Assembly (NCBI RefSeq): GCF_000473205.1
Contig: NZ_KI421507.1
Coordinates: 2,133,862-2,197,861 of the forward strand
DNA: 64,000 nucleotides
Reading direction: 5' to 3'
Origin: Pseudophaeobacter arcticus DSM 23566
GTDB taxonomy: Bacteria; Pseudomonadota; Alphaproteobacteria; Rhodobacterales; Rhodobacteraceae
Made by a program: the position numbers and the translations under genes. Positions 5,164-12,330 of this stretch are shown here, in pieces (positions within the stretch are counted from its first letter, which is position 1; the number at the start of each line of letters is the position of its first letter). The notes beneath the pieces were generated by a model. That model had not been told where the DNA came from, made no database searches, and saw nothing but the letters and a program-made list of their open reading frames with translations.

Positions 5164-5433
5164 ATGCAACAAATAGTACAGGACAAGACCCCCATGCGCG
5201 CCGCCATGCTGGCCCATGACGTGGCCTTTCAGCGCTACGCCGCCACCCGCAATGGCTTTCCCGGCGGCCAGTTCAGCCCGACAGCGGCCACGGAACATCT
5301 GCGCACGGTCTGCCAGGTCACTGGCCGCCGCCAGCTTGCAACCGACACCGCTGCGCGCCTGCGGTTTGAGAACATGCACACCGATTTCCTGATCTGGTCT
5401 GGCCGCATCCAAGCCCCCAGAAAGCATGGGTAA
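5164..5433 (+). CDS. Small phage protein of unknown function
   Basis: 89 residues from MQQIVQDKTPMRAAMLAHD, preceded by an AGGAGG ribosome site. This start is clearly better than an in-frame upstream ATG at 4975, which would give a low-complexity, proline/arginine-rich leader lying over the previous gene. The body is helical and basic (VAFQRYAATRNGFPGGQFS, RLRFENMHTDFLIW). The family is unknown. It abuts the next gene without a gap. Confidence 0.55.
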   Translation: MQQIVQDKTPMRAAMLAHDVAFQRYAATRNGFPGGQFSPTAATEHLRTVCQVTGRRQLATDTAARLRFENMHTDFLIWSGRIQAPRKHG

Positions 5434-5700
5434 ATGCCGACAAAACACGCCCCGACTGATTTCATCCGTGCACTTGCCGCTGCTGTACAGGCAGAGATGC
5501 CAGCCCCTCGACAAGAAAAGCCGTTCGGCCTTGGCGCGCCCTGGATGCATCACGCCACCCCGGAAGAATTTGAACGCCTTGCGCGCCTTCACAGCCGGAT
5601 CTTGCGTAAAGAACTGGCGCTCGCAGCCCTGCGGCAGGAACGCGCCGGCATCATGCGCCGCAGTATCCGCCGCATGCGACGTGCCGCAGGAAAAGACTAG
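5434..5700 (+). CDS. Small basic phage protein of unknown function
   Basis: 88 residues beginning directly after the previous stop codon (TAA then ATG). The C-terminal half is a long basic helix (FERLARLHSRILRKELALAALRQERAG, then an arginine-rich tail RRSIRRMRRAAGKD), consistent with a nucleic-acid-binding or coiled segment. Nothing is recognised beyond this. It precedes the methylase-like gene by seven bases, so it belongs to the same transcript. Confidence 0.55.
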   Translation: MPTKHAPTDFIRALAAAVQAEMPAPRQEKPFGLGAPWMHHATPEEFERLARLHSRILRKELALAALRQERAGIMRRSIRRMRRAAGKD

Positions 5701-5707
5701 GACCACC

Positions 5708-6367
5708 ATGAAACAGCTAAAAGTTCTGATCGGCTGCGAAACCAGCGGTGCGGTGCGCCGGGCGTTTCTTGAGCGCGGCCATGACGCCTGGTCCTGTGAT
5801 CTGTTGCCCGCGCAGGACCGCAGCAACCGCCACATGCAATGCGATGTGCGCGAGGTGCTGGAAATGGGCTGGGATCTGCTGGCCGTCATGCACCCGCCCT
5901 GCACCCGGCTGTGCAACAGCGGCGTGCGCTGGCTGCACCAGCCCCCAAAGGGGCGCAGCCTGTCGGAAATGTGGGCGGATCTCGATGCGGGTGCCGCGCT
6001 GTTTTCAGCCTGCTGGAATGCGCCGATCGCGCGCGTCGCGGTAGAGAACCCAGTAATGCACAAACATGCAAAACAGCGGATCGAGAACTTTCAGCCCGCC
6101 GCCCAGCATGTGCAGCCCTGGTGGTTTGGGGAGCCCGCCTTTAAATCCACAGGGTTATATCTGCGCGGGCTGCCCAAGCTCACCCCCACCAACAAGCTGA
6201 CACCGCCTGAGAAAGGCACAGAGACCCACAAACGCTGGTCTGCCATCCACCGCGCTCCGCCGGGCGAACTGCGCTGGCAGATCCGCAGCAAGACCTTCCC
6301 CGGCATTGCCAATGCCATGGCAGATCAGTGGGGCGACTATGCCAGCGATCACAAATTTACCGCCTGA
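5708..6367 (+). CDS. Phage cytosine-C5 DNA methyltransferase-like protein
   Basis: 219 residues. The N terminus (LKVLIGCETSGAVRRAF) matches the SAM-binding motif I region of C5 methylases in a shortened form. PPC at residues 63-65 supplies a motif IV catalytic cysteine (Cys65), and ENP at 113-115 resembles the motif VI ENV. The protein is shorter than classical 5mC methylases, and no motif VIII-X region with a target-recognition domain is evident, a known feature of a compact phage family. It may protect phage DNA from host restriction. Activity is uncertain because the target domain is minimal. The start lies seven bases after the upstream stop, beside GGACCACC. Confidence 0.7.
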   Translation: MKQLKVLIGCETSGAVRRAFLERGHDAWSCDLLPAQDRSNRHMQCDVREVLEMGWDLLAVMHPPCTRLCNSGVRWLHQPPKGRSLSEMWADLDAGAALFSACWNAPIARVAVENPVMHKHAKQRIENFQPAAQHVQPWWFGEPAFKSTGLYLRGLPKLTPTNKLTPPEKGTETHKRWSAIHRAPPGELRWQIRSKTFPGIANAMADQWGDYASDHKFTA

Positions 6368-6415: not shown

Positions 6416-6646
6416 ATGACACAGCAACTTATTGCAGTAGATGCTGACGCCCTCGCACGTCTTCAGGACGAACTGACCGAGATCAAGAAGCTACTCCTGT
6501 CTTCCAAAATCAGCCCGCCGGCCAAGTGGATCACAGTCGCGGAATACGCCCAAAAGGCGGGGAAATCAGAAGCGACAGTCCGCCGCTGGGTCAGAGATGG
6601 AAAGCTGGAACGCAACAAAGGGTTGGTCAAAAACCTCGATATCTAA
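6416..6646 (+). CDS. Putative excisionase / MerR-type HTH protein
   Basis: 76 residues. The N-terminal 30 form a short coiled helix (ADALARLQDELTEIKKLLLS). The C-terminal half (WITVAEYAQKAGKSEATVRRWVRDGKLERNKG) is a winged HTH of the excisionase/MerR/HTH_17 type, with the diagnostic TVRRWVRDGKL. Such proteins act as recombination directionality factors or promoter regulators. As the last clear gene before the cargo region, in an element with a tyrosine integrase, an Xis role is plausible but unproven; one would expect Xis nearer to int. Confidence 0.65.
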   Translation: MTQQLIAVDADALARLQDELTEIKKLLLSSKISPPAKWITVAEYAQKAGKSEATVRRWVRDGKLERNKGLVKNLDI

Positions 6647-7050
6647 GTGCTGGCCCCATCCTTCACAATTCTATGCCCGCCAAAGGTTAATGGCCACTGC
6701 CAGCCCAAAGCAGTTATCGGTTCGAGGCGCAGCGATGGGCCCACCGTCGACGCAGCGGGCGGACAGCGGCCGTTCGCCGCAAACGCGAACACGCCATAGA
6801 TTCATCGCGGATCCGGACATTCCGCCAAGCCTGTCTCCCCAAGATCAAGGAGTTCCGCACTGAGAGCGGACAGCGGACTGATGGCAGTGCAGCACCGAAC
6901 GCGCAGAAACCGGTTTAGCTGTCGTTCATCGTCCTACCGGAACAACGGAACGAAGCGCGGGATCTAAAAGGCTGCAAGTTAAGACAACCTTTCAATACCA
7001 TGGATATGGCCTCGCCGTTGCAAGGGTAGTGCCGACCGGGTCTATTCAGC
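6647..7050. other. 404-base gap without a convincing gene
   Basis: Between the putative excisionase and the convergent helicase cassette. Short open frames exist but have no ribosome site or recognisable product. The segment contains stretches such as GGGCGGACAGCGGCCGTTCG and GGGACGGACAGCGGA-like repeats of the AGCGGAC/GCGGACAGC words at 6758-6770 and 6865-6875, which look like decayed or recombined DNA. It probably marks the boundary between phage genes and inserted cargo. Confidence 0.4.
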
Positions 7051-9267
7051 TCAATTCTCCCGGTCCGGCGAGTTCGCCTGATACAGGCCGGAGAGGATCG
7101 GACTGGCGCCGCCCCGTTCGTGAGAGGAGACTAGGATCAACCGGTTGGCCGCCCGGCTAGCGCCAAGGTAGAGCCGCGACAGGTAGCGTCGCTTGGCGCC
7201 CACGCTCAGGTCATGCGTCGCCCAGTCGGCGGCATCGACGTGTATGAGATAGACCGTCTCGAATTGCAGGCCAGCGACATATTCCGGCATGGACAGCACG
7301 CATTTGCGCTTGGCGTAACGCAGCTGATCAAGGTCTTCGCGCGATTCCACCCGCACTACATTTTCTTTGATGCGTCCGGCCTCCCGATAAATCCGGAACA
7401 TGTCCATGGACATGCAGAGCACCGCCACCTGTCGACCACGACCTTGCAAACGAACCGTTTCGGCCTTGGCATCTGCCACGACTTTATCAATTAGCTCGAT
7501 GTTCTTATCGAACTCCCAGATCTCCGGCACGGCCCCCAGCTCCCTTTCGGATTTCCCCGAATATTGTTCGAGTTCGGAGGCGAGCTCCCCTTCAAGGTTC
7601 AAAGCGGGGAATGCGCCGTCGATTTGTCTAAGGAAACTCACTATCTCCCCCGTCGAGCGGTAGACCTGTTGAAGCTCCACCTGTTTAGACTCGCCCACCT
7701 TTGGATTGCGGAAGCGAGCAGCCCCAGCGTTGAGCGCTCCATCAGATATGCTTTGCTTCAGGTCATAGGCCATAAAGAGCGGCAGACTGCCATTCACCGC
7801 GGCCCGGGGGGCAAAGAGATTATGGAAGATCATAGTCTCGATGCGATTGAAGTAGTGGTACTCGTCGACGAAGATCACGTCGAAGCCCTGCGTCTCTCGA
7901 AGGTGGTCCCATTCGTGCGACACGAGGTAACGCTCGAAGTCGGAAATCATCTGGTCCATGCCAAAGAGCTTGTGGCTTTGCAGCTCTGCCCGATAGGCAT
8001 CGTAAATCTCAAGCATCAGCTCGCGGTCGGCACGGGTTTCCAGCGGCATCTGCCAGGACTCGCGTCGGGCGGTCAGGTAGTTTTTGCCGGAATCATGCCC
8101 CTTGCGGACGCGATCGGCATCAAGGACGCAAGCGATTTCATTTGCGATGTCTTGAAGCAGGCTTGGGCCTGGGCCTTCGGGTGTGAAGACTGCAGACAGG
8201 TTCTTGACCTTGGCGCGTAAGGGCAGTGCATGGCGGGGGTTCTTGCCGATCTTGGAAATGGCGTCCTGGATGAAGTCCATCTGGAACTCGCGCCCCTCGA
8301 GCCCGTCGGTGGAAAGGGGTGTCAGGCCTTTCCGCTCATAGCTCATCCTTTCCTGTGCCAGATCGTAAAGCGTGCCGATCCATAGTTTCGGTCGCCCTTC
8401 GCTTGTCGTCAGTTTCTCCCAGCGTTGCGTGGGATCAAGGACGAGGAAGAGCCGCCGGACGACGTCGTGGGCTAGGGCCGAGCTGTGGGTGATAAAGGCG
8501 AATGTCTTCTGATTATCGCCGTCTGCGTCTGTGTAGAGGTCCCAAAGACACTTCACCGCCATGGCCTGAGTCTTGCCAGTGCCCGCCGCCCCTCTGAGGC
8601 GCACCGGGCCCGAATGATCGCGAGTGACGAAGTCGCGTTGGGCTGTATTGAGCTTGGAATTGTACCATTCGTTCAGCAGCCCGTCGAAGCCTAAGCCTAG
8701 GCCGTCATGTTCCGACAAGAGGATGCCGAATTCGCCGAAGGTCTCCGCGGGCGCGACGACTTCTGCAACAAGGGCATCGAGGATGCCGGAAACCGCGCGG
8801 TCAAAGACGCCGTAGTTGGGCGAGATGCCCCGGAAGGGGACAGCATCTGGCGTGACAAGGAAAACGAACAGATGCTCAGTGTCCTTGGCTCTTTGATAGA
8901 AGTGCAGCCTTTGCCTGGACGTTCTAGAATTCGATACGTAAATCGAAAAGATCGGGCCCTCGTGAAAAGGCTGCCAGTTGGTGGGCAGGGCGCTCGTCCG
9001 GTCGAACTTGCAGATCCCTGCCCGGAAGATGCGGCTAAGGGTATCCGCCGGAAATTCGACTTTCGCCAAGATGTCGACGTCGACGATGACGAACCTGCTG
9101 TCTTCTTTGCTGGCCTCGGCGAGGATATAGATACAGTCGTCAAATTCAACGCGACGCAGGCCGACGGTATTGGCAGGGATCTCGAAGTTTTCTGTCCAGG
9201 TTTCATCGATCAGGGACACATTGAGACTCACGAGCGCCTCTTCGGCGATTACAAGTGCCTTCGGCAT
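7051..9267 (-). CDS. UvrD/Rep-like superfamily 1 helicase in cargo cassette
   Basis: 738 residues. Walker A GAAGTGKT is at 226-233, preceded by a Q-motif-like LNTAQRDFV. The Walker B box reads VDEYH (468-471), unlike the usual DExQ of UvrD. Motif IV-like QQVYRSTGEIVSFLR, motif V-like GLQFETVYLIHVD and motif VI-like LYLGASRAANRLILV follow. The first 220 residues have no recognised domain and could sense or bind a partner. The start was chosen at MPKALVIAE because a GGAAG ribosome site precedes it and it lies two bases after the upstream stop. It forms a two-gene operon with the 9270-10100 gene, away from the phage operons, near the integrase. An antiviral role is inferred from this layout. Confidence 0.8.
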   Translation of the reverse strand: MPKALVIAEEALVSLNVSLIDETWTENFEIPANTVGLRRVEFDDCIYILAEASKEDSRFVIVDVDILAKVEFPADTLSRIFRAGICKFDRTSALPTNWQPFHEGPIFSIYVSNSRTSRQRLHFYQRAKDTEHLFVFLVTPDAVPFRGISPNYGVFDRAVSGILDALVAEVVAPAETFGEFGILLSEHDGLGLGFDGLLNEWYNSKLNTAQRDFVTRDHSGPVRLRGAAGTGKTQAMAVKCLWDLYTDADGDNQKTFAFITHSSALAHDVVRRLFLVLDPTQRWEKLTTSEGRPKLWIGTLYDLAQERMSYERKGLTPLSTDGLEGREFQMDFIQDAISKIGKNPRHALPLRAKVKNLSAVFTPEGPGPSLLQDIANEIACVLDADRVRKGHDSGKNYLTARRESWQMPLETRADRELMLEIYDAYRAELQSHKLFGMDQMISDFERYLVSHEWDHLRETQGFDVIFVDEYHYFNRIETMIFHNLFAPRAAVNGSLPLFMAYDLKQSISDGALNAGAARFRNPKVGESKQVELQQVYRSTGEIVSFLRQIDGAFPALNLEGELASELEQYSGKSERELGAVPEIWEFDKNIELIDKVVADAKAETVRLQGRGRQVAVLCMSMDMFRIYREAGRIKENVVRVESREDLDQLRYAKRKCVLSMPEYVAGLQFETVYLIHVDAADWATHDLSVGAKRRYLSRLYLGASRAANRLILVSSHERGGASPILSGLYQANSPDREN

Positions 9268-9269
9268 CT

Positions 9270-10100
9270 TTAGGCTTCCTTTTCGATAAAGACTTTGCCG
9301 GCCATTTGGCCGCAATGGTTGTCATAGGCTTCTGGCGCGCCGATACGCAGGAACAGAAAGGCCATTTTTTGAACGATCTGGTAGCGCATCTGGTCTGAGA
9401 ACCTGCCCGTTCGAAAGAAGCCCTCTCGTTCGTCGCGAACCTTCCAGTCCGGGTAGGACTGGAATACATGACGTTGCTCGATCGAGAAGATGTCCCGAAG
9501 ACGTAGGACGAAGCCTTGCTCCATGAAGCCTGGCAGGCCTGGGACGAAAATTATGTCCGGAAAGCCGTCCGAAGTCGTGAGGCTCTTGCGCGCCGCCTCG
9601 AGGACCTTAACCCTCTGACTCCCGAATGCCTCGCGCAGTTGCACGAGCTCTTCGAGGTAAGATCCCGTCGCCCGCACTGCCAGTGCAAGGGCCTCGAGTC
9701 GCCGGATCGTTTCTTCTTTATTGATGCCGACGAGATCGGCCACCTCGCGACCTGATTGCTCTTGCAGCCAGGAAATCAAGTCTGTCTTGTCAAGCTTCTC
9801 GAGGCCTAGATCTTGACGCTTAATGCAGGCATTGAGCTCGTCGCTTAGGGCTGGGGCGCGCTTATCAACTTCGTCCTTCAGCTGTCTTTGCGCCCAACGG
9901 GTGGCAATATGCTCCTCCGCTGGGATAATCTCGATCCAAGAAATGCGGTCGGAATTCTTGCGCTGCTCGATGTCGCAGTCTGCGTTAAGCACAAAACCCC
10001 ATTGGTAATTGGTCACGTCGTTCTCCAGAATATCCCGCTGGATGATGTCTCCCTGCTGGAAATTCTGTACGTAGTCGATGTCCTGCAAGTGATAATCCAA
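9270..10100 (-). CDS. Unknown protein with ADCDIEQ motif, partner of the helicase
   Basis: 276 residues from a TTG at 10100 that has a perfect GGAGG five bases upstream; a TTG at 10145 in the same frame lacks one. The N-terminal region (FQQGDIIQRDILENDV, then GFVLNADCDIEQRKNSDR) resembles the G-x-(I/V)-x-(S/N)-x-DCD(I/L) motif seen in uncharacterised proteins of accessory loci. The middle is a long helical segment (EETIRRLEALALAVRATGSYLEELVQLREAF), and the C-terminal third has a FVPGLPGFMEQGFVLRLRDIFSI strand region. No catalytic motif is certain. The stop lies two bases before the helicase start, so the pair is co-translated. Its function is unknown; a sensor or nuclease partner is conceivable. 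Confidence 0.7.
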   Translation of the reverse strand: MDYHLQDIDYVQNFQQGDIIQRDILENDVTNYQWGFVLNADCDIEQRKNSDRISWIEIIPAEEHIATRWAQRQLKDEVDKRAPALSDELNACIKRQDLGLEKLDKTDLISWLQEQSGREVADLVGINKEETIRRLEALALAVRATGSYLEELVQLREAFGSQRVKVLEAARKSLTTSDGFPDIIFVPGLPGFMEQGFVLRLRDIFSIEQRHVFQSYPDWKVRDEREGFFRTGRFSDQMRYQIVQKMAFLFLRIGAPEAYDNHCGQMAGKVFIEKEA

Positions 10101-10518
10101 TGAAACCTCCGGCTTATGCGAAATTGCGAATGAGAGCAGGATCAAAACTTTGGCCCCATAAACGATTTACAACAGGGGCAGTGATAACTGAACACACAAT
10201 CAAGAAAAGCAAAATCCCCCCTAACTAACGTCACCCACCCAGCCATCGCAATACACGGGGACCTTTTCTTTTGGCTCGCAGCCAACCGCTTGATCCAGGC
10301 CTCGTGTGATCTGCTGAGATGGTTTCGGTGTGGGTGTCTCGAACCATACTGCATAACATTATGGGTGGCCGGTTCGGGGAAGCTGCCTCGCAGCAAGAGG
10401 CGACTTGGTGAATGTCCGGAGAGGGCCGACCTTGGCGGCGATCCGAGCCAAATCCATCGACTTTGCAAATGTCGCAATCTGCGCTTAGCAGACTCTCTGT
10501 CAGCCAAATTTCAAACGC
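10101..10518. other. Gap between cargo cassette and integrase, no gene seen
   Basis: 418 bases. It should contain the promoter of the leftward cassette in its left part. The rest has short frames without ribosome sites and no RNA gene that I recognise. AT-poor segments such as GCCTCGCAGCAAGAGGCGAC (10386-10405) form small hairpins. The content resembles eroded DNA rather than a functional gene. Confidence 0.4.
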
Positions 10519-11481
10519 CTAATCAAGGCGCTTGGCCAGCTCTTCGGCACTTTCATTATAGTACACCCGCAATTGCCGCAAATCTGTGTGTCCCACCATC
10601 CGAGCAAGCGCCAGCACATCTAGCTTGGTTGAGAGGGCGGTAATGGCCGCATGGCGGGAATCATGAAAAGTCAGCCCCTTCACACCTGCCCGGTCCCGCA
10701 GCTTTCGGAACAACACATCCAACTGACGAGACGACAGGCCAAACACGGGATCCAATTCCGGCAACGCTCTTATGAGCTCAACAGCCTTGCTCGACAAAGG
10801 CACCTCGCGCGGCCTGCCGTTCTTTGTGTGGGTCAGCAGAGCCACCCGGCGATCCAGGTCGACGCGATCCCACTCCAACCCTGCGATTTCTCCCGCGCGC
10901 ATGGCGCATTCCATCGCAAATTTGAACGCATGGAACGCGCGCGCAGTGGCCTTGCTCAGATCCTCACCAGCGCTGAACTGCATCGCCTCGATCTCGGCAG
11001 AGGTTGGTAGTCGATCACGCGGCTGAGGCTTTGTGGGCTTTCGCACATCGCTCAGCGGGTTTATTGAGACCAGCTCCCAATCGCGCCGCGCGACAGTCAG
11101 AACCGAAGACATGAGCTGCATTTCTCGAATGACGCTTGCCGGGGCGACCTCCTGCAACCGCTTGTCCCGCCACTTGGCAAAGTCTTTGGCAGACAAGTCC
11201 TCCAGGCGAATTTGAGCAATAGGATCTCGCCCAAACTTCTCCAGCCTGATGACTTCCCATCGGTGACCACGTTTCGCTGGCGACACCTCACGGGCGTAGC
11301 GGTGAAACAGCTCACCCAATGTCAGCTTGGCAGCGATCTTATCGCCGTGCAGTATCTCATATTCCGCCCGCGCAGCCCAATCCTTGGCCTCTTGCTTTGT
11401 CGGGAATACCTTTGACTTTCGGATACCCCTGCGGGCAATCTCTGCCCGGTATCCTGATTTGAGCTTACGAATAGACGCCAT
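10519..11481 (-). CDS. int: Tyrosine-family site-specific integrase
   Basis: 320 residues. The catalytic set is visible: Arg195 (CAMRAGEIAGLEW), Lys220 (HTKNGRPREVPL), His273 and Arg276 (FHDSRH), His298 (MVGHTDLRQL) and a tyrosine at 307 or 308. The N-terminal half holds an arm-binding segment (GYRAEIARRGIRKSKVFPTKQEA) and a SAM-like core-binding domain (residues 55-145). It starts 142 bases from the tRNA-Leu gene and faces away from it, the usual layout when the tRNA 3' end serves as attB. The residues are complete, so it should be active. Confidence 0.93.
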   Translation of the reverse strand: MASIRKLKSGYRAEIARRGIRKSKVFPTKQEAKDWAARAEYEILHGDKIAAKLTLGELFHRYAREVSPAKRGHRWEVIRLEKFGRDPIAQIRLEDLSAKDFAKWRDKRLQEVAPASVIREMQLMSSVLTVARRDWELVSINPLSDVRKPTKPQPRDRLPTSAEIEAMQFSAGEDLSKATARAFHAFKFAMECAMRAGEIAGLEWDRVDLDRRVALLTHTKNGRPREVPLSSKAVELIRALPELDPVFGLSSRQLDVLFRKLRDRAGVKGLTFHDSRHAAITALSTKLDVLALARMVGHTDLRQLRVYYNESAEELAKRLD

Positions 11482-11622
11482 GAATTACGCACCGTGCGGA
11501 AAATATGCGTAAACGAATACACATTCCTGCACACCATGGGTAGTCACCCAATTCAGAAAAACCCGTAACACTCTTATTTTATAAGGATAAATGTTCAAAA
11601 CCGTTCACGCCGGTTTAGATGC

Positions 11623-11709
11623 TGGTGCGGGCGGTGGGACTCGAACCCACACGGGCACAAGGCCCAACAGATTTTAAGTCTGGTATGTCTACCATTCCAT
11701 CACGCCCGC
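11623..11709 (-). tRNA. tRNA-Leu (anticodon UAA), integration site of the element
   Basis: Read on the minus strand, the 5' acceptor GCGGGCG pairs with CGCCCGC near the 3' end, followed by A and an encoded CCA (11623-11625). The anticodon loop CTTAAAA carries TAA, the variable arm is long (class II, CCTTGTGCCC region) and the T loop TTCGAGT is standard. The phage-like element starts directly beyond its 3' end, so the terminal bases probably form the att core. The second att copy should lie left of the window. Confidence 0.95.
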
Positions 11710-11859
11710 AACCAAGGCACAGCCCTGGGCTCTGCCTTGGTCCCAAGGTCTAGCCGCCCAAACCTTGAGGCACAATCTGTTTTATCGGCGAAAGGGGCAT
11801 TTTTGCCTCTCCCCCCCTGCCCCCTCCAGCTGCTGCCAGACGCCCTCAATTAGGGGCAC

Positions 11860-12330
11860 TCAAACCGGGGTCATTACCGCATCTTCCTTGACCGCCTGCA
11901 TCGCCACATAGGTCGAGGTGGAAGCCACATGCGGCAGGGAGGAGATCTTTTCCCCCAGAACCTGCCGGTAAGCCGACATCGACCGCGTGCGCACCTTGAG
12001 CAGATAGTCAAAATGCGACGCCATCATATGGGCCTGCTCAATCTCAGGAAGTTTCACTACTGCAGCGTTGAACTTGGACAGGGCGGATTCACGGGTGTCA
12101 TCCAGTTTGACCTCAACAAAGGCTACGTGATCCAAACCCAGACGGATTGGATCAATCAAGGCGCGATACCCGGTGATGACCCCGGCGCTCTCCAATCGGC
12201 GCAGCCGTGTCTGCGTCGGGGATTTCGACAACCCGATGCGACGGGCAAGGTCGGCAATGGAAATCCGCCCATCCTCCGCCAATACGTTGAGAATCTTTCG
12301 ATCAAAGAGATCAAGATCTGAAAAATCCAT
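11860..12330 (-). CDS. putR: Lrp/AsnC-family regulator of proline catabolism
   Basis: 156 residues from MDFSDLDLFDRKILN. An N-terminal winged HTH (DGRISIADLARRIGLSKSPTQTRLRRLESAGVI) is followed by the RAM/AsnC ligand-binding domain (VAFVEVKL, then VHMMASHFDYLLKVRTRSM-like core). It is transcribed divergently from putA with a 125-base gap, as in Rhodobacter and other alphaproteobacteria where PutR activates putA in response to proline. A GGAG ribosome site ten bases upstream supports this start over an upstream ATG at 12381. The proline-specific role is inferred from the neighbour. Confidence 0.88.
   Translation of the reverse strand: MDFSDLDLFDRKILNVLAEDGRISIADLARRIGLSKSPTQTRLRRLESAGVITGYRALIDPIRLGLDHVAFVEVKLDDTRESALSKFNAAVVKLPEIEQAHMMASHFDYLLKVRTRSMSAYRQVLGEKISSLPHVASTSTYVAMQAVKEDAVMTPV

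Follow-up and report, generated by a model that had tools for sequence, protein, structure and literature searches.

Locus organization

We analysed a stretch of 64,000 nucleotides from Pseudophaeobacter arcticus DSM 23566 (contig NZ_KI421507.1, positions 2,133,862 to 2,197,861), referred to here as the window and numbered from its first letter, and focused on a pair of genes encoding a helicase and a smaller partner protein. Both lie on the minus strand. The partner gene (9270-10100) comes first, encodes 276 amino acids (aa) and begins with a TTG codon at 10100, five bases after a Shine-Dalgarno-like GGAGG sequence (10106-10110, minus strand). The helicase gene (7051-9267) comes second, starts with ATG and encodes 738 aa, leaving 2 bases (9268-9269) between the partner stop codon and the helicase start codon. 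A first-pass annotation had described a 738-residue helicase with a VDEYH box, a two-base gap and a 276-residue partner with a NADCDIEQ motif, all of which was confirmed by coordinates and residues. It had also put the pair forward as a candidate new defence system, a reading that is supported by the computational checks named with it, as detailed below.

The pair occupies a cargo slot between phage genes and an integrase, as had been noted. The tyrosine integrase gene of the prophage (10519-11481, minus strand) matches phrog_1 (2.9e-52) and Pfam Phage_integrase (8.6e-22), while an excisionase/MerR-like phage gene on the opposite, plus strand (6416-6646; phrog_575, 1.5e-7) borders the slot on the left. 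A tRNA-Leu (taa) gene (11623-11709, minus strand) is the presumed integration target. Its 3' end forms a candidate attR core (11623-11642); this 20-base stretch is repeated with one mismatch (19 of 20 bases) at a candidate attL, 24.8 kb to the left of the first base of the window. Together, the candidate sites would bound a prophage of ~36.4 kb; we call them candidates because a 12-base part repeats once more, further left. Ten large prophage open reading frames (ORFs) scanned beyond the window include those for a major head protein, terminase large subunit, tape measure and endolysin. Further, a 33.4-kb viral contig in IMG/VR carries a 100% identical pair. The 418 bases between integrase and pair (10101-10518) hold no recognised gene and are the presumed promoter region; both this flank and the other one (6647-7050) show only small overlapping ORFs in the ORF list (e.g. 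121 aa, 10142-10507, minus strand). No minus-strand sigma-70-like site was found in 10101-10518, and neither promoter-like sites (4 vs 1.9 +/- 1.3 in shuffles) nor terminator-like sites (4 vs 4.1 +/- 2.3) between 6600 and 10600 are used as evidence.

Conservation and distribution of the pair

Full-length relatives were found for both proteins. Scans of genomes and of 2.9 million viral contigs, each matching two short peptides and thus yielding close relatives and not a census, returned 16 and 2 loci, respectively. After removal of L013, which lacks upstream DNA, and L017, a 19-residue match, the partner family was located directly upstream of the helicase in 16 of 16 loci, with the partner frame interrupted in L005 and L015 next to a helicase matching over its length. 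In a phylum sample of 398 genomes (E 1e-5), the partner was present in four and adjoined by the helicase in all of them; one is the genome of the window, one evidently that of L011 and one (L073) has an interrupted partner frame. Across 19 aligned pairs the partner-helicase junctions range from -7 to +9 nt, where a script set several helicase starts to the start codon closest to the partner stop, so that single gaps may be a few codons off. Distant pairs from E. coli, Klebsiella, Azoarcus and Paraburkholderia have helicases ~22-27% identical to that of the window. The distance matrices of the two proteins agree closely for the 19 pairs (r 0.94, 0/10,000 permutations) and for a close subset (n=13, r 0.98, 0/10,000 permutations). 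This alignment omits L005, L015 and L016, whose genes are interrupted or cut, L018 (the IMG/VR contig, same as the window), L023, in which the helicase annotation is split in two, as well as L028 and L073-L077. The pair thus consists of two closely spaced, co-inherited genes.

The partner reading frame is broken in several relatives. In L073, from genome G604, a 7-bp tandem repeat in 8.7 perfect copies (2101-2161) disrupts it, and the helicase beside it matches unbroken over the available part; the repeat looks like a slipped-strand phase switch. On some E. coli plasmids (L078, L079, L080) the annotation splits the partner into two ORFs beside an intact helicase, and one E. coli match (H58) has an IS1 element inside the matched stretch, while most of the 40 E. 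coli matches listed show a single partner ORF.

The pair is sporadic and not core in the sampled genomes. Counting the window's own genome, the helicase occurs within the genus in 1 of 12 genomes (E up to 1e-30) and within the class in 2 of 385 (E up to 1e-60). The partner occurs in 1 of 295 genomes of the family of G604 (E 1e-5), namely G604 itself. DNA near the plasmid version was detected in 113 of 5,426 E. coli genomes, always plasmid-borne and over at least 80% of its length in 109. Only two of 50,697 phage records matched, both representing one phage with the pair in a cargo slot. In the Klebsiella P2-like phage ST16-OXA48phi5.4 the pair adjoins the portal gene; PMC9122126 describes the region between gpA and gpQ (portal) in P2-like phages as an anti-phage hotspot. 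Prophages, plasmids and islands therefore all carry the pair, and it recurs with varying neighbours across these mobile and island contexts, as would be expected from the original proposal; an occurrence in core contexts, which would have spoken against it, was not seen in the genomes sampled.

Helicase and partner proteins

The larger protein is a superfamily 1 (SF1) helicase of the SF1A (UvrD/Rep-like) type, with SF1 motifs and fold present in a core spanning residues ~197-734. Its motif II, VDEYH (residues 467-471), is of the DExH form. The N-terminal domain is indeed uncharacterised, as first described, with a length of ~195-205 residues instead of 220: the Pfam UvrD-helicase match begins at residue 206 (7e-12) and structural matches leave residues 1-193 uncovered. 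The Pfam search revealed no nuclease domain in the helicase, and a sequence search of the PDB with the helicase alignment returned nothing at 0.001. In PADLOC, only partial matches were obtained (GajB, AbiO, RTasHel, Nhi and one other helicase model); GajB models scored best, with a best E-value of 3.2e-9 and a best stretch covering residues 412-548 of 738. Over 19 pairs, the N-terminal part covaries with the partner (partial r 0.56) more strongly than any of 18 core windows (at most 0.22), a lead that is not kept within the 13 close pairs (see Discussion).

For the partner, whose NADCDIEQ motif comprises residues 39-46, structure prediction suggests a MazF/CcdB-type barrel formed by residues ~13-60 and ~183-252, with a helical insertion of ~115 residues at ~61-175. 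This predicted fold was absent from the first-pass annotation. Ten residues are invariant in 59 of 59 aligned sequences, a selected set; they include C42, D43, R202 and Q244 and, judged by their conservation, look like an active or binding site. No significant family was found for the partner in Pfam, PADLOC, NCBIfam or PHROGs. PADLOC-DB 2.0 and NCBIfam 20.0 gave zero matches up to E 1, and Pfam gave no PemK (PF02452) match up to E 10 for the window partner and six distant partners. No defence model thus fits either protein over its length. A search of viral predicted structures with the partner yielded nothing below E 0.001 (best 0.01), and MazF was missing from the 17 rows of its PDB sequence search. 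Matches in that database to helical proteins (best 3.6e-8, protein A constructs, residues 144-231 across the insertion) were taken as compositional.

Neighbouring genes

The surroundings of 14 pair loci (~6.5 kb, 148 proteins) were searched against PADLOC. The set had been reduced from 151 to 149 by removal of two edge ORFs and to 148 by removal of one 1388-aa ORF. At 1e-8, 239 PADLOC families were matched, compared with 16 for 136 control proteins from 14 chosen stretches of 8 genomes (the window's included), a comparison that is only descriptive, given redundant families and an unmatched control. Cyclases, phospholipase effectors, CapP, CapH, DRT2, mad2, RmrA, E1-E2 protein and type I methyltransferases are among the 25 families listed for the neighbours; the control families comprise mad3, mad8, mad2, RtcR, ZorB, PycC, a HEAT-ARM, LmuB and an ATPase-Toprim model. 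When 20 neighbours were scanned singly, 6 had a PADLOC match at 1e-10. At individual loci, a phospholipase-cyclase-E1/E2 set, that is, an operon of a cyclic oligonucleotide-based anti-phage signalling system (CBASS), lies directly upstream of the pair (L003), a type II methyltransferase and an endonuclease lie near it (L010), and a partial PDC-S15 match is found in its vicinity (L006); cyclase, patatin and CapH/CapP-like genes were read by eye from the sequences of L004. Multiubiquitin-ThiF-DUF6527 genes are located beside or near the pair on three plasmids, two from Agrobacterium and one from Undibacterium. In descriptive terms, the pair hence recurs both in mobile cargo slots and in the vicinity of defence genes.

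These surroundings bear on the possibility that the two proteins are a replication or recombination helper pair of phages or satellites, unrelated to immunity. A UvrD/Rep-like core, a prophage around the window pair that has genes for head, terminase, tail and endolysin, and neighbours of primase kind (Toprim_3 three times, DUF927 twice and PriCT_2 twice in a Pfam search of the 148 proteins that also returned phage integrases) would all suit such a role. However, relatives are also plasmid-borne and found beside CBASS or restriction genes, and the scarcity of the pair among phage records and viral contigs is hard to reconcile with it, making this explanation very improbable in our estimate. 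Slightly better placed, yet still improbable, is a stabilisation module resembling toxin-antitoxin systems, in which a MazF-fold toxin would be restrained by the helicase or its N-terminal part, maintaining the carrier with defence as a secondary effect. The predicted fold and carriage on plasmids and prophages are consistent with this, as is the perfect 7-bp repeat breaking the L073 partner, which is expected for a costly protein that is switched on and off. On the other hand, a 740-aa motor ATPase would be an odd antitoxin, and CBASS and restriction genes accompany the pair in some loci.

Several further genes were observed near the pair or elsewhere in the prophage. In L006, a 244-aa gene just downstream of the pair (11278-12012) resembles a phospholipase-D-type nuclease by eye. 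A further large protein with a UvrD-helicase domain is annotated beside the multiubiquitin-ThiF genes and the pair in L022 (10715-14116), and another in L024. The phage early region of the window encodes a DNA methyltransferase-like protein (5426-6367; phrog_757, 3.6e-58, ORF residues 90-308). At the other end of the prophage, beside the candidate attL, three rightward genes (L029 15808-19293, L030 54-2384), between ~24.2 and ~17.6 kb to the left of the window, encode a methyltransferase-like protein of 753 aa, one of 407 aa and a helicase-like one of 776 aa, which may form a second cargo or defence system.

Discussion

Helicase-effector pairs are an established theme of bacterial immunity (Gabija, Hachiman and others), with effectors that are so far known as nucleases of other folds. 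Like Gabija (GajAB), the pair combines an SF1 UvrD-type helicase with a second protein. It had been set apart from Gabija by the lack of an OLD-family GajA, which holds: no PADLOC model (E up to 1) and no relevant Pfam family matches the partner. In addition, the small partner gene comes first, the helicase carries an extra N-terminal ~195 aa and GajB matches cover only parts of its core. Similarity to MazF, PemK, Kid and CcdB toxins lies in the predicted barrel, whereas the ~115-residue helical insertion, the other conserved residues, the missing Pfam PemK match up to E 10 and a helicase as genetic partner are differences. With Hachiman (HamAB), the pair shares a two-gene layout and would share the gating of a smaller effector by a sensor helicase that is described for Hachiman (PMC12278908). 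The same source likens HamB to Hel308, whereas the helicase here is SF1 UvrD/Rep-like, and no PADLOC match to HamB was obtained for it. HamA is a DUF1837 protein, whereas the partner has a predicted MazF-type fold and no DUF1837 match in Pfam up to E 10 or in PADLOC up to 1. Finally, a two-gene system of a helicase and a DUF2290 protein occupies comparable prophage and satellite cargo slots, namely P4/P2-like hotspots, according to PMC9122126; DUF2290 was not matched in the seven partners scanned (the window's and six distant ones). No paper on the pair was found in the open-licence literature (titles, abstract starts, matches listed), defence catalogues newer than PADLOC-DB 2.0 and NCBIfam 20.0 lying outside the search, and six accession numbers or locus tags led to none. 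A helicase-plus-partner immune module is of a known kind; what appears to be new is the toxin-fold partner and the family of the pair.

We consider it likely that this candidate system functions in defence. If so, a division of labour between a sensing helicase and a toxin-fold effector would be slightly favoured. The analogy is with Hachiman: in a published model of genome-integrity sensing, its partner nuclease is switched on when the helicase acts on damaged DNA (PMC12278908). Taken as a whole, a two-gene anti-phage (anti-mobile-element) module of this design is the explanation we tentatively prefer, at a little under an even chance. The helicase would load on aberrant DNA of phage replication, such as free 3' ends and forks, and hydrolyse ATP, with the toxin-fold protein kept inactive in a complex, probably through contacts between its helical insertion and the N-terminal part of the helicase. 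Helicase movement would then free or activate the effector, which may cut or block nucleic acid, and the infection would abort. RNA as the target (analogy with MazF) is doubtful, a gyrase-type target (analogy with CcdB) being the other option. The family of the helicase and the pairing follow from the data; the roles of sensor and effector, the target and the fate of the cell are what we infer.

A number of observations weigh against this preferred explanation. The choice of the effector subunit is a guess. The best Foldseek E-value for MazF was 0.05, with no match below 0.001, and hhalign against 35 MazF/PemK sequences gave a weak signal (probability 3-5%, global P 0.002, reversed control P 0.51) with the insertion removed and less with it kept (probability 2%, global P 0.21). 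MazF catalysis relies on an Arg in the beta1-beta2 loop and a Thr in beta3; in the hhalign register, which itself derives from weak similarity, neither seems to be kept, and nuclease activity of the partner is thus without residue support. Among the 13 close pairs, covariation of the helicase N-terminal part with the partner was 0.36, with core windows reaching 0.56. As for the neighbourhood, 14 of the 20 singly scanned proteins had no PADLOC match at 1e-10, and the control stretches stem mostly from other genomes while the PADLOC families are redundant. Some of these points would fit a Gabija-like arrangement with the roles reversed, in which the helicase is the enzyme that works on invading DNA, and specificity comes from the MazF-fold protein as a non-catalytic subunit with a regulatory or nucleic-acid-binding role. 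We regard this as rather unlikely. It would explain the seemingly lost catalytic positions, the better conservation of the helicase (mean identity 0.40 vs 0.30 for the partner) and the interrupted partners beside helicases that match in full (L005, L015) or are annotated as intact (E. coli plasmids), but the ten invariant partner residues and the lack of a nuclease domain in the helicase in the Pfam search argue against it.

In conclusion, we describe a conserved helicase-partner pair for which a sensor-effector role in defence is our preferred, tentative explanation. With somewhat greater reserve, we propose that a MazF/CcdB-fold toxin may have been recruited as the effector of a helicase sensor in a single family that phages, plasmids and islands of Proteobacteria carry: the usual active site would have been lost, a helical docking insertion and an invariant site (Q16, C42-D43, R202, Q244) gained, and the antitoxin replaced by an ATP-driven DNA sensor. 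As E. coli plasmids and a Klebsiella phage carry relatives, the system is testable with standard laboratory phages, and the invariant partner residues are concrete targets for loss-of-function mutants. The family further yields two profiles, a DExH helicase and a MazF-like partner, for which Pfam, PADLOC, NCBIfam and PHROGs hold no fitting model. Helicase-effector pairs are an important class of bacterial immunity and, if our proposal is true, a MazF/CcdB-fold effector would directly join toxin-antitoxin biology to the sensing of DNA integrity.
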